Shown: positions 20,723 through 52,260 of the stretch, in pieces
Layout: the number at the start of each line of letters is the position of its first letter
Numbering within the stretch: the first letter of the stretch is position 1
Notes under the pieces: model-generated
The model's database searches: none
Seen by the model: only the letters and a program-made list of their open reading frames with translations
Told to the model about the DNA's origin: nothing
Program-made: the position numbers and the translations under genes
From: Janthinobacterium sp. J1-1
GTDB lineage: Bacteria > Pseudomonadota > Gammaproteobacteria > Burkholderiales > Burkholderiaceae_D
Direction of reading: 5' to 3'
Assembly: GCF_030944405.1 (NCBI RefSeq)
Contig: NZ_CP132339.1
Coordinates: 3,472,001 to 3,536,000, forward strand
Length of the DNA stretch: 64,000 nucleotides

Positions 20723-21832
<1,110 letters not shown>

Positions 21833-22048: not shown

Positions 22049-24598
22049 ATGGACAAGCCGCAGGGCACCGAGGGGCTGACAGCAGCGCAGGCCGCTGAAC
22101 GACTGCAAAAAGACGGGCCGAATGCGCTGCCTGCGGCACGTCCTTTGGGTGCGGCCGGCCTGTTGATCGAGGTTGTCGTGGAACCCATGTTCCTGCTGCT
22201 GGTTGGCTGTGGCGTCATTTATCTGCTGCTCGGCGATCGCAATGAGGCGCTGATGCTGCTGGCCTTCGTTGGCATTGTCATCGGCATGACGTTTTTCCAG
22301 CGCAGACGTACCGAAAGCTCGCTGCGTGCGCTAAGCGACCTGTCCAGTCCGCGTGCGCTGGTGATTCGGGATGGAAATCAGGAACGCATCGCTGGCCGGG
22401 AACTGGTGGTGGGCGACCTGGTCTTGCTTGCCGAAGGCGACCGCGTGCCCGCCGACATGGAGCTGCTCAGTGCATCGAATTTGACGGCCGATGAGTCGTT
22501 GCTGACGGGAGAATCAGTACCGGTGGTCAAGTATGGTTGCTCCGAGGACGGCGTCGGTCCGGCCAGCCTTGTCTATTCCGGCACGCTGATCACTCAAGGC
22601 ACGGCCAGCGGCCTGGTGGTCGCCACCGGCCCGCGTAGCGCACTCGGTCGCATCGGTGCCTCACTGGTCACACTGGGCAGCGAACTGACGCCAATCCAGT
22701 TGCAAACGCGCCGGGTCGTCAAGCAGGTCACCATCGGCGGCCTGGCTCTCGCCGCCGGCCTGGCGCTGGCCTATTGGTGGCTGCGCGGAGAGGGCCTGCA
22801 AGGGCTGCTGGCCGGACTGACGCTGGCCATGGCGGTCCTGCCGGAAGAGCTTCCAGTGATCCTGACGCTTTTCCTGGGCCTGGGCGCCTGGCGCTTGGCG
22901 CGCGAAAATATTCTGGCGCGCAGTATTCCCGCGATTGAATTGCTCGGCGCGACGACCGTACTTTGTGTCGACAAGACGGGAACACTGACCGCCAACAGCA
23001 TGGTGGTGGCCCGCATCTGGTCGCAGGAAACCTCTTACGATTGCCGATATCCTGGCGCCGCCGCTTTGCCGGAGTTGCTGCACGGCGTGCTCGAATATGC
23101 CGTGCTGGCCAGTCACCGGCGGGCGTTTGACCCGATGGAGTCGGCCATTGTCCGGACCGGCGCAAGTTTGCTGGCCAATACCGAACACCTGCATGCCGAC
23201 TGGCAGCTGGTCGACGATTATCCTCTGTCGCGGCAAATGCTGGCCATGTCGCGGGTGTGGCAATCGCCGGACCGCTCCGGGTTCCTGGTGGCGGCGAAGG
23301 GGGCGCCCGAGGCCATCATCGACCTGTGCCATCTTCCACCGGCGCGCGCGGCCGCTATTGCCACCGAAGTACAAGCCATGGCAGACAGCGGTTTGCGCGT
23401 GATCGGTATTGCCCGTGCCATCTTTGCCGCGCCACATCTGCCTGACAATCAGCATGGTTTTGATTTTGAATTTCTCGGCCTGCTGGGCATGCACGATCCG
23501 GTACGGCCGGAAGTCCCCGATGCAGTGGCGCAATGTCACGCTGCGGGGATGCGCGTGGTGATGATCACGGGCGACCATCCCGCCACCGCATCGGCGATCG
23601 CGCGGCAGGCTGGTATCGCGGGCATGGCGGACAAGCGCTTGTCGGGCAATGATCTGGCCATGCTCGATGACACGGCGCTACAGGAACGCCTGGCGGACAC
23701 CGATGTTTTTTGCCGTATCGCACCGGAGCAGAAATTGCGTCTGGTGCTGGCGTTTCGCCGGCGCGGTGATATCGTCGCCATGACCGGTGACGGCGTCAAT
23801 GACGCGCCTGCGTTGAAGGCCGCCCATATCGGCGTGGCGATGGGCGCGCGCGGCACCGATGTCGCGCGCGAAGCGGCCGCGCTGGTACTGCTCAAGGATG
23901 ACTTTTCCTCGTTGCTGCTGGCGGTCCGTCATGGCCGCTGCCTGTTTGCCAATCTGCGCAAGGCGATCGTCTTTATCGTCGCGGTCCATGTTCCCATCGT
24001 TGGCCTGTCGATCCTGCCGGTGCTGCTGGGCTGGCCCATGCTGTTGATGCCGGTGCATATACTCTTCCTGCAGATGGTGATCGACCCTGCCTGCTCGATC
24101 GTATTCGAGGCCGAGCCGATAGAAGCCGGTGCCATGCTGAGCAAGCCTAGAAGGCCGGACATGCATTTGTTCGACCGCGACCTTCTGGTACGCGGTTTGC
24201 TGCAGGGAATAGGACTGCTGCTCATGCTGCTCGGCGTCTTTGCGTATGTTCGCTGGTCGCTTCAGTCCGACGACGTCGCGCGCACGACGACGTTCCTGGC
24301 CCTGGTGCTGTCGAACCTGGGGTTGATCCATGTCAATCGTCAATGGACCCAGCCGTCCTGGCGCAGCGGGGTACGCTCGAACCAGGCGTTCATATGGATC
24401 AGCATGGCGACCTTGCTGTTGCTGTTGCTGGCACTGGGTGTGCCGGCGCTGCGTGACCTGTTTGGCTTCGCGCTTCCGGGCATGGCCCAACTGGTGATGT
24501 GCTGCCTGGTCGCCATGCTCGCTACCCTCTGGTTCGAGTGCGTCAAGTGGGCGCTCGCCAGAGAGCGCAGGCGCAGTACTGTTGCTGTGCCTGATTGA
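22049..24598 (+). CDS. P-type cation-transporting ATPase
   Basis: ATG 22049 is chosen over ATG 22040 because AAAGGA (22035-22040) is then 8 bases upstream. The 849-residue protein has the P-type order: N-terminal cation-ATPase domain (LTAAQAAERLQKDGPNALP), actuator LTGESVPV, phosphorylation motif DKTGTLT (Asp at about 308), nucleotide-binding KGAPE, hinge TGDGVNDAPALKAAHIGVAMG and six C-terminal membrane helices. The PEELP motif in helix 4 suits Ca2+/Mn2+ or monovalent transporters of the PacL-like group rather than heavy-metal CPx ATPases. It opens the stress island and precedes the MgtA-like gene by 82 bases. Confidence 0.9.
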   Translation: MDKPQGTEGLTAAQAAERLQKDGPNALPAARPLGAAGLLIEVVVEPMFLLLVGCGVIYLLLGDRNEALMLLAFVGIVIGMTFFQRRRTESSLRALSDLSSPRALVIRDGNQERIAGRELVVGDLVLLAEGDRVPADMELLSASNLTADESLLTGESVPVVKYGCSEDGVGPASLVYSGTLITQGTASGLVVATGPRSALGRIGASLVTLGSELTPIQLQTRRVVKQVTIGGLALAAGLALAYWWLRGEGLQGLLAGLTLAMAVLPEELPVILTLFLGLGAWRLARENILARSIPAIELLGATTVLCVDKTGTLTANSMVVARIWSQETSYDCRYPGAAALPELLHGVLEYAVLASHRRAFDPMESAIVRTGASLLANTEHLHADWQLVDDYPLSRQMLAMSRVWQSPDRSGFLVAAKGAPEAIIDLCHLPPARAAAIATEVQAMADSGLRVIGIARAIFAAPHLPDNQHGFDFEFLGLLGMHDPVRPEVPDAVAQCHAAGMRVVMITGDHPATASAIARQAGIAGMADKRLSGNDLAMLDDTALQERLADTDVFCRIAPEQKLRLVLAFRRRGDIVAMTGDGVNDAPALKAAHIGVAMGARGTDVAREAAALVLLKDDFSSLLLAVRHGRCLFANLRKAIVFIVAVHVPIVGLSILPVLLGWPMLLMPVHILFLQMVIDPACSIVFEAEPIEAGAMLSKPRRPDMHLFDRDLLVRGLLQGIGLLLMLLGVFAYVRWSLQSDDVARTTTFLALVLSNLGLIHVNRQWTQPSWRSGVRSNQAFIWISMATLLLLLLALGVPALRDLFGFALPGMAQLVMCCLVAMLATLWFECVKWALARERRRSTVAVPD

Positions 24599-24680
24599 GA
24601 TCGGTTCACGCGGCAGCCGGGCGGATGCCGGGCGCATTTCCCCTGCCGGTGATTGCCGCAAGCTTGAAGAAGGAATCCCG

Positions 24681-27302
24681 ATGCGAAAGACTGTTACCCA
24701 TATGAAATGGCACCAGTCTCAGACTGAAACGACCGTACTGTACGCGCTGAGCAAGCTGAGTGCGCAAGCCAGTTGCGTTGCGATGGGCTCTACCATCGCA
24801 GGACTGGAGTGGCGCACCGCGCAGGAGCGGCTGCGGCGCTACGGGCCCAATCTGGTGAGCCGTGATGTGCCACCGGGCATGGCAAGGCAGTTGTGGCGCC
24901 GCTTGCGCCAGCCCTTGAACGCCTTGTTAATCGCGCTCGCCGCCGCAGCCTGGGCCTTGGGCGATCGCCCGGCCGCGGCATTGATCTTGTTGATCACCAT
25001 GCTGGCCACCGGCCTGTCTTTTTTGCAGGAGTATCGTGCCACCGCGGCGGCGACCCGCTTGCGTTCGATGGTCACGAATTGCGCCCGTGTACGGCGTCGT
25101 GGCCGGGTGGATGCCGATGCCGATGGCTACGGCGAGCTGCCGATCGAGGCCTTGGTGCCAGGCGACATCATCGCCTTGGCGGCGGGTGACATGATCCCCG
25201 CCGATGTGCGCCTGCTGGAGACGAAGGATTTTTTTGTCAATCAGGCGGCCTTGACGGGGGAAGCACTGCCCACGGAAAAATTTTCGGCGCCATTTGACGC
25301 GGGAGCCGAGTCGCCTTTTGATCTGCCCAATATGTGTTTCATGGGCGAAAACGTGCAAAGTGGCTATGCTACCGGCGTCATCATTCGAACCGGCTCGGGT
25401 ACCTTGTTCGGCGAATTGGCTGATCAGGTCGCGCACGGCCGTCCGGCCACCGCTTTTGACCTGGGTGTCAGGCAATTTACCTTGATGATGATACGCTGCA
25501 TCGCGGTCATGGTACCGGTGGTGTTGCTGATCAATGGCTTGACCAAGCACGACTGGCTGGAGGCCATGATGTTCGCGCTGGCCATCGGGGTCGGATTGAC
25601 CCCTGAAATGCTACCGATGATCATCACGGTCAATCTGGCAAAGGGTGCGCTGGTGATGGCCCGCGCCAAGGTGATCGTGAAGCGGCTCGATGCGATTCAG
25701 AATCTGGGCGCGATGGACATTCTCTGTACCGACAAAACGGGTACGCTCACGCAGGACCGGATCATTCTCAAGCGTCACCTGGACTTGAACGGCAATGAGT
25801 CCGAGCGCGTGCTGCGTTATGCCTGGATCAATAGCCATTTCCAGTCTGGCTTGAAAAATTTGCTCGATGTGGCTGTATTGAAACACGCCGAGTTGCATGG
25901 CCTGCTGGGCGTGGATGCGGGGTACGCAAAGGTGGATGAAATTCCGTTTGATTTTTCGCGTCGGCGCTTGTCGGTGGTGGTAGCGACACCGGAAGGCCGC
26001 CATCTCTTGGTATGCAAGGGTGCCGTCGAGGAAATCATGGCCGTCTGCAGCCACTATGAAGCCGATGGCCGATGCGCCATCCTCGACGCGACGCATATTG
26101 CCGCCGTCAATGCCCAGGCCCATGCTTTGAACGATGATGGCTTCCGGGTCGTGGCCATCGGGTATAAAGATGTGCTGGCGGACCAAGCCGGCGGCCATCG
26201 CGCTGATGAAACGGAACTGACACTGGCCGGCTATATCGCTTTCCTGGATCCGCCCAAGGAAAGTGCGGCTGCCGCACTCGACGCGCTGGCAGGGCAGGGC
26301 GTCGCGGTAAAGATCCTCACAGGCGACAACCCTGTCATTACCCGCAAGGTCTGCCGTGAAGTTGGCTTCGACGCCGGCGTGATCGTGCCCGGCACCAGCC
26401 TGGACAGCATGCAGGACGCGGAACTGGCCGTTCTGGCGGAGCGCACACGCGTGTTTGCCAAGCTGACACCGTCGCAAAAGGAGCGCGTGGTGCGCTTGCT
26501 GCGCGGCCACAAGCATGTGGTTGGCTTTCTCGGCGACGGTATCAACGACAGTCCGGCCTTGCGGGCTGCCGATGTGGGCCTGTCGGTGGATGGCGCGGTC
26601 GATATCGCGAAGGAGGCGGCCGATATCATTTTGCTGGAAAAAAACTTGATGGTGTTGCAAGAAGGGGTACTTGAAGGGCACAGGGTGTTTGCCAACATGA
26701 CGAAGTACCTGCGGATGGGCGCCAGTTCGAACATCGGCAATATGTTCAGCGTGCTGGGGGCAAGCCTGTTCCTGCCGTTTCTGCCATTGACGCCGATCCA
26801 GGTACTGGCGAATAATCTGCTGTATGACTGCTCGCAAATGGCGATTCCGAGCGACAGCGTGGATGCGGCCGAGATTGCCATGCCGTGCCTTTGGGATATG
26901 GACCGCATGTTCAAGTTCATGCTGTTGTTGGGGGCGGTCAGTTCCTTGTTCGATTATCTCACCTTCGCCATGTTGCTGTGGTTCTTCGATGCGTGGCGCG
27001 ATCCTGCACTGTTCCAGACCGGCTGGTTCATCGAGTCGCTGCTGAGCCAGACCCTGATCATCCATATTCTCCGCACGGCCAGGATACCGTTTTTTCAGAG
27101 CCGGGCCAGCGTCGTGCTGTCGGTGACCAGTGCCGCTATTTGCGCGCTCGGCATCTGGTTGCCGCACTCGGCCTTTGCCGCCGCACTCGGTTTGCGGCCC
27201 TTGCCCCCCTGTTACTGGATATTGCTGCTTCCGCTGTTGTGCGCCTATGCGGTATCGGCTTTTATCGCGAAAAGATATGGTGCGCGGCTCTGGACTGGGT
27301 GA
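24681..27302 (+). CDS. mgtA: MgtA-type Mg2+-importing P-type ATPase
   Basis: ATG 24681 follows AAGGAATCCCG and is preferred over upstream frame-open codons. The 873-residue product has the MgtA/MgtB pattern: LTGEALPTEKF in the actuator domain, CTDKTGTLTQD (Asp at about 351), KGAVEEIM, TGDNPVIT, the hinge FLGDGINDSPALRAADVGLSVDG, and the NNLLYDCSQMAIP helix characteristic of Mg2+ ATPases. It would import Mg2+ across the inner membrane. No long mgtA-type leader is present in the 82-base gap upstream, so the usual Mg2+-sensing 5' UTR is absent. Expression with the preceding ATPase gene is likely. Confidence 0.88.
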   Translation: MRKTVTHMKWHQSQTETTVLYALSKLSAQASCVAMGSTIAGLEWRTAQERLRRYGPNLVSRDVPPGMARQLWRRLRQPLNALLIALAAAAWALGDRPAAALILLITMLATGLSFLQEYRATAAATRLRSMVTNCARVRRRGRVDADADGYGELPIEALVPGDIIALAAGDMIPADVRLLETKDFFVNQAALTGEALPTEKFSAPFDAGAESPFDLPNMCFMGENVQSGYATGVIIRTGSGTLFGELADQVAHGRPATAFDLGVRQFTLMMIRCIAVMVPVVLLINGLTKHDWLEAMMFALAIGVGLTPEMLPMIITVNLAKGALVMARAKVIVKRLDAIQNLGAMDILCTDKTGTLTQDRIILKRHLDLNGNESERVLRYAWINSHFQSGLKNLLDVAVLKHAELHGLLGVDAGYAKVDEIPFDFSRRRLSVVVATPEGRHLLVCKGAVEEIMAVCSHYEADGRCAILDATHIAAVNAQAHALNDDGFRVVAIGYKDVLADQAGGHRADETELTLAGYIAFLDPPKESAAAALDALAGQGVAVKILTGDNPVITRKVCREVGFDAGVIVPGTSLDSMQDAELAVLAERTRVFAKLTPSQKERVVRLLRGHKHVVGFLGDGINDSPALRAADVGLSVDGAVDIAKEAADIILLEKNLMVLQEGVLEGHRVFANMTKYLRMGASSNIGNMFSVLGASLFLPFLPLTPIQVLANNLLYDCSQMAIPSDSVDAAEIAMPCLWDMDRMFKFMLLLGAVSSLFDYLTFAMLLWFFDAWRDPALFQTGWFIESLLSQTLIIHILRTARIPFFQSRASVVLSVTSAAICALGIWLPHSAFAAALGLRPLPPCYWILLLPLLCAYAVSAFIAKRYGARLWTG

Positions 27303-27350: not shown

Positions 27351-27364
27351 TTGATCCGCATCAA
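27351..27364. promoter_or_regulatory. Perfect FNR/Anr box upstream of the BON gene
   Basis: TTGATCCGCATCAA matches the TTGAT-N4-ATCAA consensus at all ten positions. A possible -10, TATGCT (27386-27391), puts the start near 27398, so the box centre lies at about -41, the class II activation position. The leader to ATG 27451 is about 50 bases. Confidence 0.8.
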
Positions 27365-27450
27365 GCGTGCGGCGCCGCTGTTTTCTATGCTGGTGAAGCA
27401 GGAAGGACCTTGCTATCTGATGGGGGCATGCACTGAAAACGGAGGTGGAC

Positions 27451-28113
27451 ATGTTGAGCGATGATGAAGTAAAAAAGCAGGTCGAACGTGAGCTGGAGTG
27501 GGTGACGAATGTCGCGGCATCGGATATCGGCGTGTCGGTCAAGAACAGCGTCGTCACCTTGTCCGGATTTACGCATAGTTTCGGCGACAAGGTGCAAGCC
27601 GAACGTTGTGCGAAAGGCGTCGCCGGTGTCGCCGGCGTGGCCAACGATATCGAGGTACGGCTGGCGGGGGAAGCGCGGCCCGATCCCGAAATTGCGCGCG
27701 ATGCCGTGGCCGTACTCAAGGCGCAACTGCCTGGTTCATCCGACATGATCAAGGTAGTGGTACAGGATGGCGTGCTGCGGCTGGAAGGGCGGGTTGCCTG
27801 GAATTATCAACGTCAGCGTGCCGAGGAGGCGGTACATCACCTGCGCGGCGTGCGCAGTGTGCTCAACCAGCTCGCGCTCAAACCCACCGCCTCGGCCGGC
27901 GAAGTGCGGCAGAAAATCCTGTCTGCATTCCAGCGCAGCGCCGCCCTCGATGCCGCGCGCCTGGTGGTCGAGGCGAGTGGCGCGCGCGTGGTGCTGAGCG
28001 GCAGCGTGCGCTCGTTCATGGAGCGCGAGGACGCGGAAAAAGCCGCCTGGCACGCTCCTGGCGTGACCGAGGTGGAAAACCACATCAAGATTGATCCGAC
28101 GCTGGCGTGCTAG
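27451..28113 (+). CDS. Triple BON-domain protein
   Basis: ATG 27451 follows GGAGG; the in-frame GTG at 27445 is less likely. The 220-residue product consists of three BON domains at about residues 5-70, 78-145 and 150-218, each with the G-x-V-x-L-x-G pattern (SVVTLSGFTHS, GVLRLEGRVAW, ARVVLSGSVRS). BON domains bind phospholipid or other hydrophobic surfaces and are common in envelope-stress proteins (OsmY-like). No signal peptide is visible, so it may be cytoplasmic or at the membrane face. A very similar protein is encoded at 41267-41911. The perfect FNR box upstream suggests induction at low oxygen. Confidence 0.88.
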   Translation: MLSDDEVKKQVERELEWVTNVAASDIGVSVKNSVVTLSGFTHSFGDKVQAERCAKGVAGVAGVANDIEVRLAGEARPDPEIARDAVAVLKAQLPGSSDMIKVVVQDGVLRLEGRVAWNYQRQRAEEAVHHLRGVRSVLNQLALKPTASAGEVRQKILSAFQRSAALDAARLVVEASGARVVLSGSVRSFMEREDAEKAAWHAPGVTEVENHIKIDPTLAC

Positions 28114-28198
28114 CCCCCACGCGATAGCGGGACTGGCCCGGCACGATGTTTTTTGGGATATGCCGCCCAGGCCGATACCGCGTTAACAGGAGATGATG

Positions 28199-28630
28199 AT
28201 GAACAGAACGACGCAGCAGATCGTGCACGGCTCAAGATTGTGGCACTTGTTTTCCATGGCCCGTATGGAGGAGTACCTTCAGCGCTGGCGTCTCAAGCAT
28301 TCATTTTTTTCAATGAAGAAACGCCAGCACTTCCGGCTCGATGTTGTGGAAACGGAGGATGCTTATCTGGTCGAGGCAGAGATGCCCGGTTATGGCAAGG
28401 ATGCGCTGAAGGTGGAAATCGACGGGAATGAAGTGCTGATTTATGCGCAGGCGAAGGAAGCCACCGGCGCCAACGACGGGGAAGCGCGGTTGACGCCACA
28501 GTACCGCTATTTCACCTTGCAGCAAGCCATCGACGATCACAACGCAACGGCGCGCTACCGGCACGGTATCCTGGAGCTGCGCCTGCCGAAAAAGCGTGGA
28601 AGCCGTACGGTCCAATTGGCCATCAACTGA
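28199..28630 (+). CDS. Hsp20/alpha-crystallin family small heat-shock protein
   Basis: Three ATG codons occur in a row (28193, 28196, 28199). The last is best spaced from AGGAG (28188-28192). The product of about 143 residues has a short divergent N-terminus and an alpha-crystallin domain: FRLDVVETEDAYLVEAEMPGYGKDALKVEIDGNEVLIYA through YRHGILELRLPKK. The C-terminus lacks an obvious I-x-I motif. Such proteins hold unfolded clients as oligomers. It follows the BON gene by 85 bases and may share its FNR-dependent transcript. Confidence 0.88.
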   Translation: MNRTTQQIVHGSRLWHLFSMARMEEYLQRWRLKHSFFSMKKRQHFRLDVVETEDAYLVEAEMPGYGKDALKVEIDGNEVLIYAQAKEATGANDGEARLTPQYRYFTLQQAIDDHNATARYRHGILELRLPKKRGSRTVQLAIN

Positions 28631-28737: not shown

Positions 28738-29520
28738 CTAGTGCGACATGAGTACCGGCACGGTCATCGATTGCAATACAGTGCGCGTCACCCCGCCCAG
28801 CAGGATTTCGTGCCAGCGCGCATGGCCGTAAGCACCCATGACCAGCAGATCGGCATCCCGGTCAGCCGTCAGTGACAACAATGCGTCGCCTATCGGCAAT
28901 CCGGCCGATGTGGTCTGTTGTAGCACCTCCACATGGACATCATGGCGTGCCAGGAACAGCGCGATGTCGGCGCCGGGCTGAGCGCCGTGTACCCCATATT
29001 CGCGCTCCGGATTGAATACGGCCACCGTCACGAGCTTGCTGGCACGCAGTAGCGGCAGCGCATCGCTGATGGCGCGCGTGGCGGCGCGGCTGCCATCCCA
29101 GGCCACGATGGCGTGCTGGCTCCAGCGATCCCTGACGCCTGCGTGCGGCAGCACCAGTGATGGCCTGCCCGCATGCAGCGTCACATATTCGGGTAGTTGC
29201 CCATTTGTCGTGTCGTCGCGATCCTGCGGATTGCTTTGGCTAAGCATGATCAGATCGGCATAGCGCGCATGCAGCGTCAGGTTGGCCGCGCTGTCTTGCG
29301 GTCCCATGCGGCGTTCGAAGGAAACACCGGCAAGGCGCGCCTGCGTTTCAAATCGATCGAATGCCGCCAGGATCTGGTGGCTGGCGGCCGGCAACACGGG
29401 TTGCGTTGCCAGGCCGACCAGATGGGCATGTTCGATACTGGCAATCTGTGCCGCCACGACGATACGGTCACGGGCCTGGACCGAGCCGTCAATATGTACC
29501 AGGATGGTCTTGTAATGCAT
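28738..29520 (-). CDS. Universal stress protein, two UspA domains
   Basis: ATG 29520 is placed 7 bases after AGGAG on the minus strand; the frame open to 29754 upstream is not used. The 260-residue protein opens MHYKTILVHIDGS, and its second UspA domain starts SQHAIVAWDGSRAATRAI. It ends with an ATP-binding-like loop LVMGAYGHARWHEILLGGVTRTVL (G-x2-G-x9-G-type). Tandem UspA proteins are stress and anaerobiosis markers. It converges on the hsp20 gene. A degenerate FNR-like site is noted near 29578 but not claimed. Confidence 0.88.
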   Translation of the reverse strand: MHYKTILVHIDGSVQARDRIVVAAQIASIEHAHLVGLATQPVLPAASHQILAAFDRFETQARLAGVSFERRMGPQDSAANLTLHARYADLIMLSQSNPQDRDDTTNGQLPEYVTLHAGRPSLVLPHAGVRDRWSQHAIVAWDGSRAATRAISDALPLLRASKLVTVAVFNPEREYGVHGAQPGADIALFLARHDVHVEVLQQTTSAGLPIGDALLSLTADRDADLLVMGAYGHARWHEILLGGVTRTVLQSMTVPVLMSH

Positions 29521-29693
29521 GGCTCGCTCCTGTCGGATAAACAATGCCCAGCCTAGCAAATCGGCACGCAAAACCGCATGATCTGCGTCACGCAATCCGG
29601 CGTTGGTGGCGCCGGTGCAGACGACGGCCTGCATCGTCGTCGCGACGCTGCGGCCAGCACGGTAACGATCAATGTGCGGTTTCCGGACTGAGC

Positions 29694-41205: not shown

Positions 41206-41266
41206 CGTGCAACTCCTGATGGTGCGGCATCGGCAATCAGACCCGGGCTTCCCGGCGGGGCGGGCT

Positions 41267-43132: not shown

Positions 43133-45912
43133 GCATGCGATTGACGGCCGGCCAGCGCACGGAATTCCCGCGCGCACAGTGGCTGGCTGAACAGGAAGCC
43201 CTGGAAAGCATTGCATTGATTCGCCACCAGGAAAGCCTGTTGCTCGGCCGTTTCCACGCCTTCGGCGATGACCGTCAGGCCAAGCGTGTGTCCCAGCACG
43301 ATCATCACGCGTGCGATGGCGGCATCATTGGGATCGGTCAGCAGATCATGGCAGAAGCTGCGGTCGATTTTCAGCTGATCCAGCGGCAGCCGCTTGAGAG
43401 AGGCAAGCGAAGAATACCCTGTGCCGAAGTCATCCAGTGCCAGGCCAACCCCGGCGCGTTTGAGCGTGCTCATTTTTTCGGCGATGCTGGTGAAGTCGTC
43501 AAGCATCAAGCTTTCTGTCAGTTCCAGTTTCAGCCGCTGTGGTTCGGCGCCCGCGGCGCGCACGGCATCGTTGACCTGGGACACGAAGCCGGCTTGCTTG
43601 AACTGTTGCGGACTGACGTTGATTGCCAGCGTCAGATGCCGCATGACTGGCTCGCTCGCCCAGGTCGCCAGCTGCGCGCAGGCGCTCTTGAGCACCCACT
43701 GCCCCAAGCGCAGGATCAGGTCGCTGCTCTCCGCCAGTTCGATGAACTGGTCGGGCAGCACCAGGCCTTTGCGCGGATGGTGCCAGCGCAGCAGGGCTTC
43801 GGCGCCAATCAGCTGGCCAGTCGCATTGACCTGGGCCTGGTAGTAGAGTTCGAACTGTTCCTGCTCTAACGCCTGTTGCAGGTCGTGCTCCATTTCGGCT
43901 CGTGCGTTGGCCGCTTGCTGCATCCGCGGTTCGAAGAAGCGGAAGGTGTTGCGCCCCGCGGCCTTGGCCTGATACATGGCCAGATCGGCATGCCGCAATA
44001 CCTCGTCGGTTGTCAGGCGGTGGTCGGAGATCAGTGTCACGCCGACGCTCGACGTGCACAGGTACTGGCGATCGGCGAGCGTGTAGGGACGATTCAGTTC
44101 CGCCAGAATATGTTCGGCGATATCCTGTGCCTTGTGGCTTGCTTCGGCCTCCTGGTGGCTCAAGCCTTCGAGCATGATGACAAATTCGTCTCCGCCCAGA
44201 CGGGCGACCGTGTCGACGCTGCGCAGGCAGGCTGGCAGGCGTCGCGCCACTTCGCGCAGCAGCACGTCGCCCTGGTCGTGGCCCAGCGTGTCATTGAGCA
44301 TTTTGAAGTTGTCGAGGTCAATGAACATGAGGGCGCCAATCAGATTGCTGCGGCCTGACTTGTCGATGGCGTGGCGCAAACGGTCGACCAGCAGCCGCCG
44401 GTTCGGCAGTCTGGTCAGCGGGTCGTAAAAAGCGAGTTGGCGAATTTCCTCTTCGGCCTGCTTGCGGCTGCTGATGTCGCTTTGCGTGCAGACATAGTGG
44501 CGAATGATGCCTTGCTGATCGCGGATGGCGCTGATGATGGTCCAGGTAGGATAGACTTCGCCATTCTTGCGGCGGTCCCAGCACTCGCCCTGCCAGGTGC
44601 CTTGCCGCGTGATGCTGTCCCACATGGCGGCATAGAAAGCGTCGTCGTGGCGGCCTGATCTCAGCATGTGCGGCGTGTGCCCGAGGATGTCCTGCTCGGT
44701 ATAGCCGGTGCTGGCCGTGAAAGCGGAATTGATGCGCAGCACGGTCTGCCTGGCATCCGTGATCATCATCGGTTCGTGTGACTCGAACGCGACCGCGGCA
44801 ATGCGCAGTTGCTCGGCGGCCCGGAGTGTTTCCGTGATGTCGAGCGAGATGGCCAACAGATGCGTTGGCTTGCCTGTATGGTCAAGCAGAACCATTTTTC
44901 TGGTATGCAGGAAGCGTGTCGTTCCTTGGGGGGCGCAAAATGTTTCTTGCGCGATATCCACGATCTCGCGTGAATCAATGACCTTGCGGTCGGCGGCCAT
45001 GCGCGCCTGGGCCTCCGCGCCCGGGTACAGGTCCTGGTCGGTACGGTGGATGATGTCCGCCGACGATTTCCCAAACAGCACCTCCGCGGCCTGGTTGAAG
45101 AATTCGTAGCGCAGGTTGTCGGCACGCTTGACGACGATAATTGCCGGCATCTGCTCCATGATCAGCGAGACCAGATGGCGTGATTGCCGCAGGTCTTGGG
45201 TGCGCTCATGTACCTCGTGCTCCAGTTCGATGTTGCTGCGCCGGATCGCGGCTTCGGCGTCGAGCCGCACCGCGTCGTCTCGCCGCAGGCGTGCCGCCGC
45301 GTCGATCAAGGCATCGGCGACCTGTTGCGTTGCAGGCAGTCGCATACGCCGTGCGGGTAGCTTGCCGTCTGTGCCGAGCGCGCTCGCGAGCGTCAGGAGT
45401 TGTTCCATGTCTCGCCTGATCAGCCGGCTGGATCGCCTTGCCAGCAGCAAACCAGTCGCCAGCATGATGGCGCCCAATCCGATACCGCAAGCCAGCCAGC
45501 GCCACAGCGCGCCGTCACCACTGCTGTCCGGTGCCCGGTTGGCAGCCGTCTGCCGGCGATCCGGCGGCCGTGGCATCGTACTCAGGTCGGGCAGGCCTTG
45601 CCGCGCGTACCAGCTGCGCCGCCGCCATTCGAGCGCAGCCTGGGCAGCGATGTGGCAGTGTGGCAGGCGGCGGCGCGCCGCGATGCCGCCGCCGACGGTC
45701 CCGGCGTCAATCCGGGCTCGCGGCGTGTGCCACAAGGCGGGAACACGCCGCGACGAAGGCTGACCGCCATATTCGGAGAGTGGCGCGCCATGGGCGACGC
45801 AGGGCGCGCGCGCTTGCCGCGGCGCAGGCGGGATGTGCGCGGCCGGCAGCGTCAAGATCAGCGCGGCGGCGATGAGCAGCGCGAGATGGCGAATGGTGTG
45901 CGGTTCGTGCAT
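43129..45912 (-). CDS. Membrane PAS-GGDEF-EAL protein
   Basis: This 927-residue protein has an N-terminal hydrophobic segment (residues 9-25) and a periplasmic stretch to about 140. A second membrane helix (ACGIGLGAIMLATGLLLA) is followed by a coiled linker and two PAS domains (about 240-345 and 365-475). The GGDEF domain has the intact motif at about residues 573-577, and the EAL domain has EALLRW at about 705 and DDFGTGYSSL. Both catalytic motifs look intact, so it could make or degrade cyclic di-GMP. PAS domains suggest redox or small-ligand sensing. An FNR-like box lies upstream. Confidence 0.92.
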   Translation of the reverse strand: MHEPHTIRHLALLIAAALILTLPAAHIPPAPRQARAPCVAHGAPLSEYGGQPSSRRVPALWHTPRARIDAGTVGGGIAARRRLPHCHIAAQAALEWRRRSWYARQGLPDLSTMPRPPDRRQTAANRAPDSSGDGALWRWLACGIGLGAIMLATGLLLARRSSRLIRRDMEQLLTLASALGTDGKLPARRMRLPATQQVADALIDAAARLRRDDAVRLDAEAAIRRSNIELEHEVHERTQDLRQSRHLVSLIMEQMPAIIVVKRADNLRYEFFNQAAEVLFGKSSADIIHRTDQDLYPGAEAQARMAADRKVIDSREIVDIAQETFCAPQGTTRFLHTRKMVLLDHTGKPTHLLAISLDITETLRAAEQLRIAAVAFESHEPMMITDARQTVLRINSAFTASTGYTEQDILGHTPHMLRSGRHDDAFYAAMWDSITRQGTWQGECWDRRKNGEVYPTWTIISAIRDQQGIIRHYVCTQSDISSRKQAEEEIRQLAFYDPLTRLPNRRLLVDRLRHAIDKSGRSNLIGALMFIDLDNFKMLNDTLGHDQGDVLLREVARRLPACLRSVDTVARLGGDEFVIMLEGLSHQEAEASHKAQDIAEHILAELNRPYTLADRQYLCTSSVGVTLISDHRLTTDEVLRHADLAMYQAKAAGRNTFRFFEPRMQQAANARAEMEHDLQQALEQEQFELYYQAQVNATGQLIGAEALLRWHHPRKGLVLPDQFIELAESSDLILRLGQWVLKSACAQLATWASEPVMRHLTLAINVSPQQFKQAGFVSQVNDAVRAAGAEPQRLKLELTESLMLDDFTSIAEKMSTLKRAGVGLALDDFGTGYSSLASLKRLPLDQLKIDRSFCHDLLTDPNDAAIARVMIVLGHTLGLTVIAEGVETAEQQAFLVANQCNAFQGFLFSQPLCAREFRALAGRQSHA

Positions 45913-46028: not shown

Positions 46029-46042
46029 TTGATGCGCATCAC
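46029..46042. promoter_or_regulatory. Near-perfect FNR box upstream of the GGDEF-EAL gene
   Basis: TTGATGCGCATCAC fits nine of ten consensus positions. A start about 41 bases downstream on the minus strand would leave a leader of about 80 bases before ATG 45912. The rest of the gene-free stretch 45913-46262 shows no convincing gene. Confidence 0.6.
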
Positions 46043-46138: not shown

Positions 46139-46262
46139 AAAAAGAAGCGGTGCGGCTGCCTGCCCGGCAAGTCCTGGACCTGTTGCGCGAGGCGCCGGGC
46201 CGGCAAGAGCGAGTCGGGATACTGTTTGCCGGCATGGGCCTTCGTGCTGCACTGGATGGGCA

Positions 46263-46817
46263 TCAAAACCCGCCGCTGGCGGCTGGTGATGTGTTGCGAG
46301 GCGCGTTGCGTGGCGAGATCGGCGATGATGGCGTCGCCTCGTCGAGCCGGCCCAGTTCCGCACTGAAGCGCGTGATGCGCTCCAGGTAGCATCCGGTGCG
46401 GATTTCCCGTTCTCGCAAGCACAGCCTGGCGAACGGTTCACGATGGCACAGGATCGCCATGTCATGCATGGCCTTGTCGCCGCTCCTGCCGCCCATGGTG
46501 CAAAATACCGCGACGCGATGAAAATGGTGCTGTTGCTGCAGGATATAGCTGCGCATCGGCGCGCTTGCACGGCCTGCCCAGACCGGCGTTCCCAGCACGA
46601 TGAACGGATAATCGGCCGGATTGTGCCGGACTGGCGCGATGGGCGCCGCAACGTCATGGACCGCATCCCACAGGGCGCGCAGGAAACCGAAGGCATTGCG
46701 ATAGGTGTGCTGCGGCCGCAACGCTTCGACATCCGCACCGCTTGCCCTGGCCAGGGCAAGGGCGGCTGCTTCGGTCACGCCGGTGCGCGAGTAGTAGACG
46801 ATCAGGCAGCTCTTCAT
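46263..46817 (-). CDS. Flavodoxin-domain protein
   Basis: This 184-residue protein begins KSCLIVYYSRTGVTE, the phosphate-binding loop of flavodoxins (S/T-x-T-G-x-T). It continues with FIVLGTPVWAGRASAPMRSYI and VAVFCTMGGRSGDKAM, the two FMN-isoalloxazine loops. It is therefore an FMN-binding electron carrier or quinone/porphyrin oxidase-like protein. It follows the nitroreductase gene by 57 bases on the same strand, suggesting that the pair cooperates in flavin-based electron transfer (inference). Confidence 0.85.
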   Translation of the reverse strand: MKSCLIVYYSRTGVTEAAALALARASGADVEALRPQHTYRNAFGFLRALWDAVHDVAAPIAPVRHNPADYPFIVLGTPVWAGRASAPMRSYILQQQHHFHRVAVFCTMGGRSGDKAMHDMAILCHREPFARLCLREREIRTGCYLERITRFSAELGRLDEATPSSPISPRNAPRNTSPAASGGF

Positions 46818-46874: not shown

Positions 46875-47552
46875 TCATCGGCATGCCGCGTCGTTCGTGC
46901 GCCCGTCGGCGCCCGGCGCGATCGGGGCCGCATGGCCGGGGAAACCCACCGATTGTGCCAGCATCACGCGCTGGTTTGCCCGCAGGCCGAGCACGTGCGC
47001 CAGCACGGGGCGGTCCACCCAGGCGCGCGCGACAGTGGCGAGGCCCTGGGCGGCGCAGAACAGGTACACATTCTGGCTGATATAGCCGGTATCGAGCGCC
47101 GCATACAGCTTCTGCTCCCAGCGCGGTGCGTGATCCATTTTGGCCAGGTCGGCGACATACACCAGGTTGACCGGGACACCGGCGACGAAATCCTGCCAGC
47201 CGGTCGCCGCGCGCACATCGCGCTGGTCCAGCTGGCGCAGCGCGCCGGCGGCGGCCTCGAACAGGAACAGACCGTCTTGCTGGGCCACATAAATATCGAT
47301 CTCCTGCCAGTTCTTCGCCGAGGGCGCGGTACGCTGTCCGGTGGCCGGACGGTTCACGCCGCATGCCGCCCACAGCAGTTGCGCCAGCACCGGCAACGGC
47401 ACGCTGCGCGCCGAAAACTGGCGCTCGCTGCGCCGCTGTTCGAGTACCTGAAGCAAGGAGCGGCTCAGAGGAGTCAAGGCGGCTTGGCCGCCATCGAGTG
47501 GCAAATTGTGCAGCAGCGGATCGGTGGTCAGCAAGGTGCTCTCGGTAGGCAT
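46875..47552 (-). CDS. Nitroreductase-family protein (SagB/ThcOx-like)
   Basis: ATG 47552 follows AGGAG; the frame opens earlier at 47606 but without a ribosome site. The 225-residue product has the FMN-contact start LEQRRSERQFSARSVPLPVLAQLLWAACGVNR. It then shows GYISQNVYLFCAAQGLATVARAWVD and a C-terminal QRVMLAQSVGFPG. It groups with nitroreductase-like oxidoreductases of roughly 200-220 residues. The N-terminal PTEST tail has no signal character. It probably transfers electrons with the flavodoxin encoded downstream. Confidence 0.87.
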   Translation of the reverse strand: MPTESTLLTTDPLLHNLPLDGGQAALTPLSRSLLQVLEQRRSERQFSARSVPLPVLAQLLWAACGVNRPATGQRTAPSAKNWQEIDIYVAQQDGLFLFEAAAGALRQLDQRDVRAATGWQDFVAGVPVNLVYVADLAKMDHAPRWEQKLYAALDTGYISQNVYLFCAAQGLATVARAWVDRPVLAHVLGLRANQRVMLAQSVGFPGHAAPIAPGADGRTNDAACR

Positions 47553-47745
47553 GGCGGACTCCTGCAGATAGGTTCGGACATGAGTGGCGGTTTCGGAACC
47601 CGCCATATTTCAGGTCAAGGAATTGATCCGGATGGCAGTTCGACCTTCCGACAGGCGAAAGAGTTCGCGCCGCAGTGACGCTTTCATGCCGCACTTTCGG
47701 CGTGGCCTGAATCGGCGTCCCGGCCGACTTTCATTTTTCCGGGAT

Positions 47746-47786
47746 TTGTCGCACATCAAGGCAGATGGGGGCTGCCGTCGTAGTAT
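47746..47786 (+). promoter_or_regulatory. FNR-like half-perfect box with -10 element
   Basis: TTGTCGCACATCAA (47746-47759) has one perfect half-site and eight of ten consensus bases. TAGTAT at 47781-47786 would serve as -10 with the box centre at about -41. Together they predict an oxygen-regulated transcript reading right, into the small secreted ORF and the usp gene at 48100. Confidence 0.5.
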
Positions 47787-48099: not shown

Positions 48100-48537
48100 A
48101 TGTTTCGACATATTTTATTTCCCACCGATGGAGAAGCGCCGTCCCGCGCGGCCCTGGCGCAGTGCGTGGCATTTGCCAAAGCGTGCGGTGCGCGCTTGAC
48201 CGGATTGCATGTGGTGCCGCCTTTCCACGTGCTCACCACCAACGCGGCCATGCTGCGTGATACGCCCGAGACTTACGCCGCACATAGCCAGGCGCATGCC
48301 AGGGCTTGCCTGGAGCAGGTGGCCGAGTCGGCGCGCGAGCAGGGCGTCGTCTATGAAACCTTGATTGTGGAACACGAGGCGCCTCATGAAGCGATCATTG
48401 ATGCCGCGCGTAGCCACCATTGCGATCTGATCGCCATGGCATCACACGGGCGCCGCGGCATGCGGGCATTGCTCATCGGCAGCGAGACGCAGAAGGTGTT
48501 GACGCACAGTAAGTTACCCGTGCTGGTCTATCGTTGA
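48100..48537 (+). CDS. Universal stress protein, single UspA domain
   Basis: A strong site (GGGAGGGTGTC) precedes ATG 48100. The 145-residue protein is a single UspA domain: FRHILFPTDGEAPSRAAL at the N-terminus and DLIAMASHGRRGMRALLIGSETQKVLTHS at the C-terminus. The latter carries the G-x2-G-x8-G-S/T ATP-binding motif in better form than in the tandem Usp proteins nearby, so it likely binds ATP. It follows the small secreted ORF and may share the FNR-linked promoter at 47746. Confidence 0.9.
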   Translation: MFRHILFPTDGEAPSRAALAQCVAFAKACGARLTGLHVVPPFHVLTTNAAMLRDTPETYAAHSQAHARACLEQVAESAREQGVVYETLIVEHEAPHEAIIDAARSHHCDLIAMASHGRRGMRALLIGSETQKVLTHSKLPVLVYR

Positions 48538-48569: not shown

Positions 48570-48773
48570 GTGGACAGATTGCCTGAGGAGCAGCGCATGC
48601 TGACCCTGGTACCGTCCGGGCAAGCGATGATGGCTGCATTGGCATGTCGCCTGCATGTCGACGCGTCCGGCCGCCAGCGTGTGCCGTTCATCGCGGCGGC
48701 ATCGAAGGAGGGGGCGATGGGCAGCTTCTGCAAGACGGGTCGCGCGGAACTCATCGCTTCAGGTGCTCTGTGA
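48570..48773 (+). CDS. Small hypothetical protein coupled to the kinase gene
   Basis: GTG 48570 has AAGGTGG a few bases upstream. The 67-residue product (starting VDRLPEEQRMLTL) has no recognised domain or signal peptide. Its stop overlaps the GTG start of the next gene (GTGA), the arrangement of translationally coupled genes. That overlap is the main reason to accept it. It could instead be a leader peptide or a chance frame. Confidence 0.4.
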   Translation: MDRLPEEQRMLTLVPSGQAMMAALACRLHVDASGRQRVPFIAAASKEGAMGSFCKTGRAELIASGAL

Positions 48774-50419
48774 CGTCGGCCGGACAGCAGGACTGCGACG
48801 CTGTGCCACAGGCGCGGCTTGTGCGTCGCCTCGCACGCTGCCTGGATACGGCCGATGCGCGCACACAGCTGATCGAGACCGATATTTCCTGGGTATTGTT
48901 GGCTGGCGGCTTGGCCTATAAATTCAAAAAAGCAATTCGCCGCGATGTGCTGGACTACGGCAGCCTGGCGGCGAGACGCTTTGCCTGTGAAGAGGAGTTG
49001 CGCCTTAACCGTCGTCTCGCGCCGGAACTGTATCTGGGCTTGTCTACCGCCACCGGCAGCCAGGCCTGTCCCTCCATGGATGGGGTCGGCCCGGCGCTTG
49101 ACGTGGCCGTTCGCATGCGCCGCTTTCCGCAGTCCGCGTTATGGCAGGCACGGCTTGATGCCGGACAACTTGGCACGTTGGAGGTCAAGGAACTCGCGGC
49201 GCTGCTGGCGGATTTTCACGTCCGCGCGCCGCGTGCCACGCGTGCGCTGCCTTGGGGTAGCGGCAGGCTGATTCGAGCCCGCACGATGCAGGACCTTGAT
49301 GGGATTGTTGCCTTGGCAAGCAGTTCGCGCCAGCAGGGCATGCTCGCTGACATCGCAAGCTGGATCGGCGCCCAACACCATGGCTTGAAGCGGATTTTTG
49401 CGCGGCGCAAGGAGGACGGCTGGGTGCGTGAGTGCCACGGAGATTTGCATCTCGCAAATATCCTGACACTCGATGGCCTGGTGCGTGTGTTCGACGGCAT
49501 CGAATTCAGTCCGGGCCTGCGCTGGATTGACGTGGCCCAGGATCTGGCTTTTATCTGGATGGATTTGCAATGTCACGGGCAGCCTCGGTTGGCTGCGCGC
49601 TTGCTCAATGATTACCTGGAACGCAGCGGCGACTACGGCAGCCTGGCGGTGCTGCCTTACTACCGGGTGCAACGGGCGCTGGTACGCTGCAAGGTGGCCC
49701 TGCAGCGTACCCTGCCCGGTACGCCAGGGCGCATTGCGGCCCTGAAGCAGGCGGCACGTTATCTGGCATTCGCGCATGCCCACACCGTGCCTGGCGCGGC
49801 ATCGCTGATCATTGCGCACGGCCTGTCCGGCAGCGGCAAGTCCTGGTTGTGCGATGCGCTGGTCGAGCCGCTCGAGGCGGTGCGTTTGCGTTCCGATGTC
49901 GAGCGCAAACGGTTGTATGCCGGGGCGGTCATGCCGGCAACAGGATGGTATGACAGCATCCGCAACGCCGCCACGTATCGCCGGCTGGCACGGCTGGCGC
50001 GCACCGCCTTGCTGGCGGGTTTTACGGTTTTGGTCGATGCGGCCTTTCTGGAGCGCGATAAACGCCTGGTATTTTGCCGTCTCGCGCAACGCTGCCACGT
50101 CGCGTTCCTGCTGCTGCATGTCAGTGCGCCACTTGCCTTGCTGCAATCGCGCCTGGCCGAGCGCGCGGCGTCCGGCCACGATCCCTCCGACGCGGACCAT
50201 GCAGTGCTGGCCGGCCAGATGGCGCGCTTCGGGCCGCAGGGGTTGCTGGCTGAGGAACTGGGCAATGCTGTCGTCGTTCTCAATGATGCCGGATTTGGCA
50301 GCGTAGCGGTGGCCGGGTTGGCGTGTCGCTTGCGTCGCACCTTGCGCAGGAACGCCGCGCCAGTGCGCGACGAACATGGCGTGATGGGTTCGGATGACGG
50401 CCTGCCACCGGTCGATTAG
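48770..50419 (+). CDS. APH-like kinase domain fused to P-loop (AAA/zeta-like) kinase
   Basis: GTG 48770 is the best start; the frame open to 48644 lies over the preceding ORF. The 549-residue product has an N-terminal aminoglycoside-phosphotransferase-like domain with the catalytic loop ECHGDLHLANIL and the DFG-like FDGIEF segment. A C-terminal P-loop kinase follows (HGLSGSGKSWLCDAL, then LRSDVERKRL and VDAAFLERDKRL). This two-domain protein is widespread in Proteobacteria, often next to stress genes, but its substrate is not established. It lies in a run with usp upstream and hsp20 downstream. Confidence 0.87.
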   Translation: MTSAGQQDCDAVPQARLVRRLARCLDTADARTQLIETDISWVLLAGGLAYKFKKAIRRDVLDYGSLAARRFACEEELRLNRRLAPELYLGLSTATGSQACPSMDGVGPALDVAVRMRRFPQSALWQARLDAGQLGTLEVKELAALLADFHVRAPRATRALPWGSGRLIRARTMQDLDGIVALASSSRQQGMLADIASWIGAQHHGLKRIFARRKEDGWVRECHGDLHLANILTLDGLVRVFDGIEFSPGLRWIDVAQDLAFIWMDLQCHGQPRLAARLLNDYLERSGDYGSLAVLPYYRVQRALVRCKVALQRTLPGTPGRIAALKQAARYLAFAHAHTVPGAASLIIAHGLSGSGKSWLCDALVEPLEAVRLRSDVERKRLYAGAVMPATGWYDSIRNAATYRRLARLARTALLAGFTVLVDAAFLERDKRLVFCRLAQRCHVAFLLLHVSAPLALLQSRLAERAASGHDPSDADHAVLAGQMARFGPQGLLAEELGNAVVVLNDAGFGSVAVAGLACRLRRTLRRNAAPVRDEHGVMGSDDGLPPVD

Positions 50420-50517: not shown

Positions 50518-50531
50518 TTGATCGAGATCAT
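50518..50531. promoter_or_regulatory. Near-perfect FNR box upstream of hsp20-adh
   Basis: TTGATCGAGATCAT fits nine of ten consensus bases. It lies in the 330-base gap 50420-50749, which otherwise shows no gene. The nearest downstream genes are hsp20 (50750) and the alcohol dehydrogenase. No AT-rich -10 was found at the ideal distance. Confidence 0.6.
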
Positions 50532-50749
50532 GCCAGGTACGGCTAGTGGGTGAGGCGGCATCACCGGGCGCAGCTGGAAGGTGACTTGTCCGGCAGTTTT
50601 TGAGCGTCGCAGGGCAGCCAATTTGATGTGCGTCAGATGTCGTTGGGCGGCGCCTTATAAGCTGGATGGGCTGTCTGTTGGAGATGGTCCTGATCTGGCA
50701 AGCTTATCGAGGGCATCCGGCAGGCGCGTTCCACTCAAGGAGAATTGCC

Positions 50750-51196
50750 ATGGTCAACAGTTTGATGCCTTTTAGTTCGTTGCGTGATATTGCGCGTTTT
50801 GATCCATTCCGGGAAATGGATGATTTTTTTCAAGATTATGCGGCATTCCCGCGTTTGCGCATGGGTGACGCCGCGCAACGCATCCGCGTGGACATGTCGG
50901 AAAACGAGCAGGCGTATATGCTCCGGGCCGAGCTGCCCGGAGTCCAGAAGGAGGATATCAAGGTCGCGATCGACGGTAATCAGGTATCCATCACCGCCGA
51001 GGTGAAGAAGGAAGAGCAGCACGAGAACGGCAATATGGTCCGCAGTGAACGCTATTATGGTCAGCAGTATCGCAGCTTCAGCCTGCCGCAAGAGGTGGAC
51101 GAGAGCAAGGCCGAGGCCAAATGCCATGACGGCATCCTGGAATTGACGTTACCAAAAAAACCTGGCGGCGGTGGCAGGACCCTGCAAATTCAGTAG
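50750..51196 (+). CDS. Hsp20/alpha-crystallin family small heat-shock protein
   Basis: ATG 50750 follows AAGGAG by 7 bases. The 148-residue protein (MVNSLMPFSSLRDIARFDPFREMDDFF) has a typical class A small heat-shock protein N-terminus. The alpha-crystallin domain runs from IRVDMSENEQAYMLRAELPGVQKEDIKVAIDGNQVSI to CHDGILELTLPKK. The C-terminal LQIQ contains an I/L-x-I-like contact motif. It differs clearly from the Hsp20 at 28199. It holds unfolded proteins for refolding. The alcohol dehydrogenase gene follows 50 bases later and is probably co-transcribed. Confidence 0.93.
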   Translation: MVNSLMPFSSLRDIARFDPFREMDDFFQDYAAFPRLRMGDAAQRIRVDMSENEQAYMLRAELPGVQKEDIKVAIDGNQVSITAEVKKEEQHENGNMVRSERYYGQQYRSFSLPQEVDESKAEAKCHDGILELTLPKKPGGGGRTLQIQ

Positions 51197-51246
51197 CGTC
51201 ACCAGGTGGTATCTGACACTGAATCAACCTCGCTGAGGTGATGCCG

Positions 51247-52260
51247 ATGACGTTGACGGGCAGCATGCTGGCGATGCAATGGCCGGGGGCGGGGCGGGAC
51301 CTGCAGGCGGTAAGCCTTCCGATTCCCGCCTGTGGCGCGCATGAGGTCCTGCTGCGGGTGCTGGCTTGCGGCATATGCCGCACGGATCTGCATATCGTCG
51401 ATGCGGAGTTGGCGCCGCACCGCGTGCCGCTGATACCGGGGCATGAAATCGTCGGAGAACTGGTGCATGCCGGCAGCCATGTGAACCGCTTCAAGGTAGG
51501 CGAGCGACTGGGCGTGCCATGGTTGGGGGGCACATGCGGGCGTTGCCGTTATTGCCGCGCTTCGCGCGAGAATCTGTGTGACCGGCCTTTCTTTACTGGC
51601 TACGACCGCGATGGCGGCTACGCGCAGTATGCGCTTGCCGATGCGCGCTACTGTTTCGCGATCCCGCCGCGGTATGACGATGCGCATGCGGCGCCACTGC
51701 TGTGCGCCGGCCTGATTGGCTATCGCGCCTACCTGATGGCCGGTGATGGCAGGCGGCTCGGCTTGTATGGTTTCGGTGCCGCAGCCCATTTGCTGGCGCA
51801 GGTGGCGCTGGCGCAGGGACGCGAGGTCTATGCCTTTACACGGCCTGGCGACTCGCGCACGCAGCGTTTCGCACAATCGCTGGGCGTCACTTGGGCCGGT
51901 GACAGTGACGCCGCCGCACCTGTGCCGCTCGATGCCGCCATCATTTTTGCGCCGCTCGGTACGCTGGTGCCAACCGCGCTCGCTGCGTGCGTCAAAGGCG
52001 GTACGGTCGTCTGTGCCGGTATCCACATGTCGGCCATTCCCTCGTTTCCCTATGCGCTGTTATGGCAAGAGCGCTGTCTGCGCTCGGTGGCAAACCTCTG
52101 CCGTGCCGATGGAGAGGCTTTCCTTGCGCTGGCCGCCAGCTTGCCGCTGCAGACCACGGTAAGCACATTTCCCCTGCGGGAGGCAAACCGGGCCCTGGCG
52201 ATGTTACGCGGCGGTGGCCTGGACGGCGCCGCCGTGCTGTTACCGGAATGGCAATCGTGA
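51247..52260 (+). CDS. Zinc-dependent alcohol dehydrogenase
   Basis: ATG 51247 is best spaced from GAGG; GTG 51238 and ATG 51241 are alternatives. The 337-residue MDR-family enzyme has the catalytic-zinc Cys in CGICRTDLHIVDAEL, GHEIVGELVHAGSHV, and the structural-zinc lobe CGRCRYCRASRENLC. The cofactor motif GLYGFGAAAHLLAQVA replaces the usual GxGxxG with GFGAAA, as in the AdhA-like/YahK-type subgroup. It likely reduces aldehydes to alcohols to dispose of NADH. The upstream FNR-like box fits a fermentative role. Confidence 0.9.
   Translation: MTLTGSMLAMQWPGAGRDLQAVSLPIPACGAHEVLLRVLACGICRTDLHIVDAELAPHRVPLIPGHEIVGELVHAGSHVNRFKVGERLGVPWLGGTCGRCRYCRASRENLCDRPFFTGYDRDGGYAQYALADARYCFAIPPRYDDAHAAPLLCAGLIGYRAYLMAGDGRRLGLYGFGAAAHLLAQVALAQGREVYAFTRPGDSRTQRFAQSLGVTWAGDSDAAAPVPLDAAIIFAPLGTLVPTALAACVKGGTVVCAGIHMSAIPSFPYALLWQERCLRSVANLCRADGEAFLALAASLPLQTTVSTFPLREANRALAMLRGGGLDGAAVLLPEWQS

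Follow-up and report, generated by a model that had tools for sequence, protein, structure and literature searches.

We analysed a stretch of 64,000 nucleotides of Janthinobacterium sp. J1-1 (contig NZ_CP132339.1, positions 3,472,001 to 3,536,000), hereafter the window, in which a block of about 33 kb lies behind the gene malK. This block is likely to be an acquired island and an FNR-controlled locus for survival at low oxygen, of the same kind as the lxa locus of Burkholderia. The gene cluster typical of lxa is found here as four universal stress proteins (Usp), two Hsp20 proteins, two BON-domain proteins and a MaoC-Pta fusion. The original prediction had read a 30-kb interval of this region as a stress island marked by repeated FNR boxes. 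Much of this stands, namely the enrichment of boxes in promoters, the presence of an FNR in the genome, the stress and anaerobic-metabolism genes, and the island itself. The boxes do not, however, stand before the whole gene set.

FNR boxes and their conservation

We scanned the whole window with the consensus TTGATNNNNATCAA, allowing up to two mismatches. The six sites predicted before were all recovered, with the same coordinates and scores: 27351 and 31131 match 10/10 bases, 43119, 46029 and 50518 match 9/10, and 47746 matches 8/10. They had been placed in or beside gaps, and indeed five lie between drawn genes and 43119 shares four bases with the end of the GGDEF-EAL gene. Beyond these six, we found 46253 (9/10), which shares four bases with the end of the flavodoxin-like gene, 24323 (9/10), which lies about 250 bp ahead of the second P-type ATPase gene and within the first, and 50623 (8/10), which adjoins hsp20b and is conserved. 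The whole window has 36 sites with at most two mismatches, against 11.8 ± 2.9 in shuffled sequences.

For the gap test, gene boundaries were drawn from the protein families found, and margins of seven bases were added to the gaps; it covered positions 6689–59548 of the window, with 1–6688 and 59549–64000 outside it. Within the interval, 14 gaps totalling 2709 bp contain six sites with at most one mismatch, against a mean of 0.075 in 200 shuffles (maximum 1). Two of the six, 43119 and 46253, are counted only through the seven-base margin, given their four-base overlaps with gene ends. One such site lies in the coding DNA of the interval (0.3 in shuffles), and none in the tested gaps outside the interval (6689–22039 and 52261–59548). 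Scans for consensus sigma-70 promoters and terminators gave counts that were not above those of shuffles.

Both exact boxes have −10-like elements nearby. The first (27351–27364, +) precedes BON1 (27445–28113, +), which encodes a triple BON-domain protein, and hsp20a (28193–28630, +), with TATGCT 21 bp downstream on the side of BON1. The second (31131–31144) occupies the divergent promoter of phaC (31205–32953, +) and of the gene encoding the fusion of MaoC (enoyl-CoA hydratase) and phosphate acyltransferase (29694–31097, −). Towards phaC, CATAAT follows it after 23 bp; towards MaoC-Pta, TACACT follows after 21 bp. The gene hsp20b (50666–51196, +) has a box at −141 (50518–50531, +) and a second, FNR-like one at −36 (50623–50636, +), the latter followed by TATAAG after 19 bp. 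No good −10 element at class II spacing (about 22 bp after the box) was seen for 43119, 46029 and 50518.

We then surveyed relatives in 22 of 119 loci, using matches that covered at least half of the query, dropping upstream regions shorter than 150 bases, and searching 300 bp upstream at up to one mismatch; several of the rows are distant paralogues. Boxes precede 7/8 relatives of phaC, every one of them exact (the exception is in Cupriavidus, L119), 5/6 of BON1 and 7/9 of hsp20b. Four hsp20b relatives have paired boxes near −135 and −30, comparable to the pair in the window, and two further boxes, in distant relatives (41–42% identity), sit on the start codon itself. When five phaC relatives were aligned, the box was common to all; AATAAT or CATAAT matches the −10 element of the window in four (L001, L002, L004, L091), and the fifth (L090) has TATAGT. 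One locus of the genus (L075) retains the box and TATGCT in its BON1 promoter and, in degenerate form, the proximal box and TATAAG of its hsp20b promoter. By sequence comparison, the predicted boxes at phaC, BON1 and hsp20b are backed by relatives.

The survey is less favourable to other genes. Boxes were found before 4/6 orthologues of Usp3 (42082–42921, −), where they lie at −126 and the box of the window (43119–43132, −) at −204, and before 3/8 relatives of Usp4 (48100–48537, +), all three within a single B. stagnalis locus (L118) at 27–32% identity. Counts were 1/2 for the first P-type ATPase (PATP1) and 1/5 for the pyridoxamine 5'-phosphate oxidase-fold (PNPOx-like) protein. No box was found upstream of relatives of the permease YhhJ (0/14), the adaptor HlyD (0/9), BON2 (0/6), the outer-membrane efflux protein (OEP, 0/4), RbbA (0/4), the flavodoxin (0/2), or Hsp20a, Usp1 and MgtA (0/1 each), nor of malK, a gene outside the island (0/11). 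The box before the GGDEF-EAL gene, at a distance of 117 bp (46029–46042, −), was checked in one distant relative, which has no box there; the one where the flavodoxin-like gene ends (46253–46266, −) is known from the window sequence. The 8/10 site upstream of the nitroreductase gene (47746–47759, −) has little backing as an FNR box.

A block inserted behind malK

The DNA of the left (9000–22039) and right (52300–64000) flanks was searched against 40 genomes of the genus, including this one. Among the matches listed, the two flanks are joined in three related genomes. In G012, the left match ends at 21917 and the right one begins at 54837, with an overlap of 143 bp and a single repeat copy at the joined site. 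The corresponding positions are 21900 and 56175 in G009, with 24 bp between, and 21890 and 56235 in G003, with 75 bp between. Three others (G032, G014, G010) keep the malK end next to a different right neighbour, and no other genome of the genus has the block at this site among the matches listed.

The block is bracketed by diverged direct repeats of about 130 bp, at 21769–21900 (+) and 54837–54970 (+), which are copies of the 3' end of malK with its terminator-like hairpin and are about 91% alike. The left copy sets the left boundary, at about 21.9 kb. The right one sets the other boundary and directly follows the start of a further gene, truncated at the junction (54700–54836, +; presumably ArsH-like), whose relative in another locus (L148) continues as an open reading frame (ORF) of 238 codons. 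The island is thus genuine, but its extent had been underestimated: it spans about 21.9–54.8 kb (32.9 kb), not 30 kb, and includes arsR, a gene of the low-molecular-weight phosphatase family (arsC-like) and arsB (52470–54666, +). This arsB is 89–93% like those of G009 and G012, and at the place corresponding to the ars site of G009 our genome lacks ars genes. In both G009 and G012, the related arsB gene has a different location. The block was probably assembled from several sources. The simplest guess for its entry is recombination through shared malK DNA.

Similar genes occur in other arrangements in five genomes of the genus (G016, G014, G028, G007, G036), and five loci (L075, L081, L082, L084, L086) contain 2–6 boxes per 20 kb, against 0.1–0.4 in shuffles. 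A long homologue of the AAA33 protein (E < 1e-100) is present in 8/40 genomes of the genus, this one included; one copy has internal stops. MaoC-Pta, whose nearest named relatives are from Rugamonas (64–67%), was dropped as a synteny anchor, as none of the 29 named loci carries the whole gene set.

Proposed regulation of the island and its alternatives

The family HTH_Crp_2 matches ten regions of the genome above the Pfam cut-off. One, at C1:250030 (L061), is an FNR homologue with the motif CATCSMHQLC (C-x2-C-x5-C) and additional cysteines. When oxygen drops, FNR, most likely this homologue, would bind the palindromes and activate at least three units: BON1-hsp20a, the divergent phaC and MaoC-Pta-Usp1, and hsp20b-adh, the limits of these operons being putative. 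Less surely, it might also drive Usp3 with the BON2 and exporter genes behind it, and the GGDEF-EAL gene. The product of phaC would then store reduced carbon as polyhydroxyalkanoate (PHA), MaoC-Pta would conserve energy from acyl-CoA via acyl-phosphate, the alcohol dehydrogenase (ADH), nitroreductase and flavodoxin would reoxidize cofactors, and the Usp, Hsp20 and BON proteins would protect proteins and envelope. We infer the oxygen response, the activation by FNR and the induced storage, acyl-phosphate and protection functions from the protein families and from work in Herbaspirillum and Burkholderia. In Herbaspirillum seropedicae, Fnr1 is reported to control directly phaC1 and the dksA-phaC2-fabI operon, Fnr3 to control adhA directly, and both to control jointly two usp genes (PMC5934665).

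A number of observations weigh against a control this broad. The density of boxes is not telling by itself. There are 289 sites with at most one mismatch in the 6.95 Mb of the genome and seven in the 30.2 kb of the interval, against 1.26 expected from the genome rate (nominal Poisson P = 3e-4), yet 29% of random placements yield some 30-kb stretch with at least seven. Because so many random placements are equally rich, we dropped genome-wide clustering as proof and built the case on position and conservation; the claimed enrichment holds for the promoter gaps but is unremarkable as density across the genome. The gaps before the pair of P-type ATPases, PNPOx, Usp2, the BON2-exporter genes and the ars genes have no box at up to two mismatches, and the idea that boxes mark the whole set was not borne out. 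Among relatives, no box precedes MaoC-Pta (0/11), ADH (0/3) or GGDEF-EAL (0/1), and few precede the nitroreductase (2/7) or AAA33 (1/7), which leaves the boxes predicted near GGDEF-EAL and nitroreductase with no or weak backing. The closest relative of hsp20b (88%, in L075) lacks a box at up to one mismatch. As a control, we analysed the surroundings of 20 other exact boxes in the genome, and put ten adjoining ORFs to Pfam. Eight of the ten are not typical FNR targets or lack a family (two of them); they include a ligase, a 3-hydroxyacyl-CoA dehydrogenase, a ketol-acid reductoisomerase, a protease, an IclR regulator and an SRP54 GTPase. Three exact control boxes were found only within long ORFs. 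An exact box by itself is thus no proof of regulation. The other two neighbours point the other way: a COX1-family oxidase gene, with its box about 80 bp ahead of it and the cysteine-bearing fnr five kilobases away, and a PAS-MCP gene. The Fnr targets reported in Herbaspirillum include genes for oxidases and for taxis (PMC5934665).

These results leave some room for a narrower view, which we find possible though doubtful, in which only phaC, BON1-hsp20a and hsp20b-adh are FNR targets, the remainder forms a general cluster for stress and efflux that lies between them by coincidence, and the other boxes are chance occurrences or relics. The relatives back mainly these promoters, and neither RbbA, OEP, BON2, ADH nor GGDEF-EAL; the ATPases and ars genes have no box in front. 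Against this view, the interval has six gap boxes where 0.075 are expected by chance, and the Usp3 orthologues are boxed in 4/6 loci. Read-through could moreover extend control to the exporter.

The identity of the regulator raises another point of the same adverse kind. A second FNR-like protein (C1:2758734) lacks the N-terminal cysteine cluster and could use the same boxes; its recognition helix, like that of the C1:250030 protein, looks FNR-like. The boxes might be read by this protein or by one of Dnr/FixK type, that is, by another CRP/FNR-family regulator, in response to a different signal, for example nitric oxide or a two-component cascade; FixLJ is reported to induce fixK, the anr2 homologue, in B. 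dolosa (PMC9104464). This is unlikely: a cysteine-bearing FNR is encoded in the same genome, and the same classes of targets are bound by Fnr in Herbaspirillum (PMC5934665).

Acquisition, too, has observations that count against it. General family scans recognised no integrase or transposase among the block proteins scanned, scans of the window against Rfam (at gathering cut-offs) and for tRNA genes gave no match, and the base composition of the block is ordinary, with no clear compositional sign of foreign DNA. That an ancestral block was lost from the related genomes, as these features and the spread of related genes across the genus in other arrangements would allow, is nevertheless improbable given the malK-end repeats around the block, with the right copy placed after a truncated gene, the single copy at the joined site of G012, and the lack of the block at malK in other genomes of the genus among the matches listed. 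An acquired, FNR-controlled island is the reading we retain.

Gene content, exporter and known systems

Family matches agree with the gene content described before for the interval, and add the nitroreductase, the PNPOx-like protein, a second ABC-2 permease and the flavodoxin-like protein. The block opens with a cation P-type ATPase (22040–24598, +; best NCBIfam matches under their cut-offs) and an MgtA-type Mg2+-translocating P-type ATPase (24582–27302, +). Behind MaoC-Pta comes Usp1 (28738–29754, −), which overlaps the end of that gene and whose start is uncertain. PhaC is nearest to class I synthases, under the cut-off of that NCBIfam model. It is followed by Usp2 (32950–33792, −), the PNPOx-like gene (33952–34458, −) and an exporter made of the second ABC-2 permease (34708–35922, −; which we take to be YhhJ-like), the RbbA ATPase/permease (35847–38603, −; 1497 bits for a cut-off of 1050), an HlyD-family adaptor (38600–39673, −) and an OEP of NodT/TolC type (39670–41370, −). 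BON2, another triple BON-domain protein (41267–41911, −), lies behind Usp3. Further right are a PAS-GGDEF-EAL protein with intact GGDEF and EAL motifs (43129–45912, −), the flavodoxin-like protein (46263–46817, −), the nitroreductase-family protein (46875–47606, −) and, after Usp4, AAA33, a protein with a C-terminal AAA_33 ATPase domain (48644–50419, +), some plasmid relatives of which are annotated as bifunctional phosphotransferase/ATP-binding protein. A zinc alcohol dehydrogenase gene, adh (TIGR02822; 51238–52260, +), follows hsp20b. Plus-strand ORFs at 33838, 34550, 35206 and 46443 have no Pfam family and were replaced by the opposite ORFs that do. Outside the block, an ORF at 59257–60642 matches Imm71 and Imm72, two families of immunity proteins; its neighbours are a KaiC-like protein and a hybrid histidine kinase (56323–59548).

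The RbbA gene of the island is the sole full-length copy in the genome. In at least 32 genomes of the genus, RbbA, adaptor, channel and second permease adjoin a MaoC-Pta paralogue, and at least two more have partial matches. The order, analysed in 23 of the 32 (L088-L090, L120-L139), is box, fabI, OEP, HlyD, RbbA, YhhJ, DUF3141-like (presumably the right name), MaoC-Pta, ackA. The box is in front in 23/23 loci (22 exact, one with one mismatch), as are fabI and the DUF3141-like gene within the operon; ackA is also present in 23/23, in many cases truncated where the stretch ends, and phaC stands between box and fabI in two loci (L090, L121). The island resembles this core operon in having the same exporter and a MaoC-Pta paralogue. 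In the core operon of our own genome (L092, G000:C1:1780000-1799999), the exporter is missing, while the exact box is retained together with fabI, DUF3141-like, MaoC-Pta and ackA; the exporter sits in the island behind Usp3-BON2. Because the boxed operons of the genus carry the exporter and the only full-length RbbA here is in the island, FNR may reach it by old association, here via read-through from Usp3-BON2; at most, the island exporter is read through from Usp3. In alphaproteobacteria (Caulobacter, Brevundimonas, Acetobacteraceae, Rhodopila; L022, L028, L029, L021), an HlyD-RbbA-YhhJ-OEP module lies a few kb from a Pta gene. Among the open-licence papers listed, no title or abstract describes an RbbA exporter behind an FNR box, nor an lxa-type block that was inserted.

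The tie across the genus between an RbbA-type exporter and a fabI/MaoC-Pta/ackA operon with an FNR box, which in two loci also includes phaC, gives a concrete lead on the role of this exporter. Tentatively, and with less confidence than for the island itself, we propose that in this group low-oxygen survival is passed on in modular blocks of DNA, with FNR boxes already in place at the genes, so that any recipient with an FNR would acquire a fully wired anoxia programme at once. The RbbA exporter would be a conserved working part of the PHA/acyl-phosphate branch of this programme and would export a product, or a component of the envelope, that is made at low oxygen.

The low-oxygen switches of other bacteria offer parallels. 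The Anr regulon for stress and fermentation in Pseudomonas and the DosR dormancy regulon of mycobacteria place Usp and alpha-crystallin genes under such a switch; DosR also includes a nitroreductase and a P-type ATPase, with a regulator and site of a different kind from FNR. Their likeness to the island is one of description, not of sequence comparison. DosR has itself been likened to lxa for its Usp and alpha-crystallin genes and its low-oxygen switch (PMC6127331). The lxa locus of Burkholderia cenocepacia (BCAM0275-BCAM0323) is reported to encode several Usp, alpha-crystallin/Hsp20 and a BON-domain protein, to be strongly induced at low oxygen and to be required for anoxic persistence (PMC6127331, PMC9733578). 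It is patchy among strains, being missing in H111 and others (PMC3759415), and appears in reference entries of PMC4603805 and PMC3966863.

By gene content, the B. stagnalis locus L118 appears to be the lxa locus. It has six Usp-like stretches, Pta, acetate kinase, BON, Hsp20, AAA33 and a heavy-metal-type P-type ATPase, with ten boxes (four exact) in 41 kb against 0.4 in shuffles; its lxa-like part is L118:1-28500. One of its exact boxes lies between the Pta and acetate kinase genes. Like lxa, the island clusters several Usp, Hsp20 and BON-domain proteins, and the lxa-like region of B. stagnalis adds to this likeness with Pta and a P-type ATPase, and has FNR boxes all along it. Unlike it, the island has four Usp rather than six and ATPases that are not of the heavy-metal type, and AckA, present in L118, has no match in the window. 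It adds PhaC, the MaoC-Pta fusion, the RbbA-type exporter and the PAS-GGDEF-EAL protein. With H. seropedicae, it shares the kinds of targets reported for the Fnr1/Fnr3 regulon, phaC, adh and usp (PMC5934665); there they are described as a regulon, whereas here several of them are grouped within a single inserted block. With the island, low-oxygen loci of the lxa type extend to another genus, in a case shown as an inserted block.

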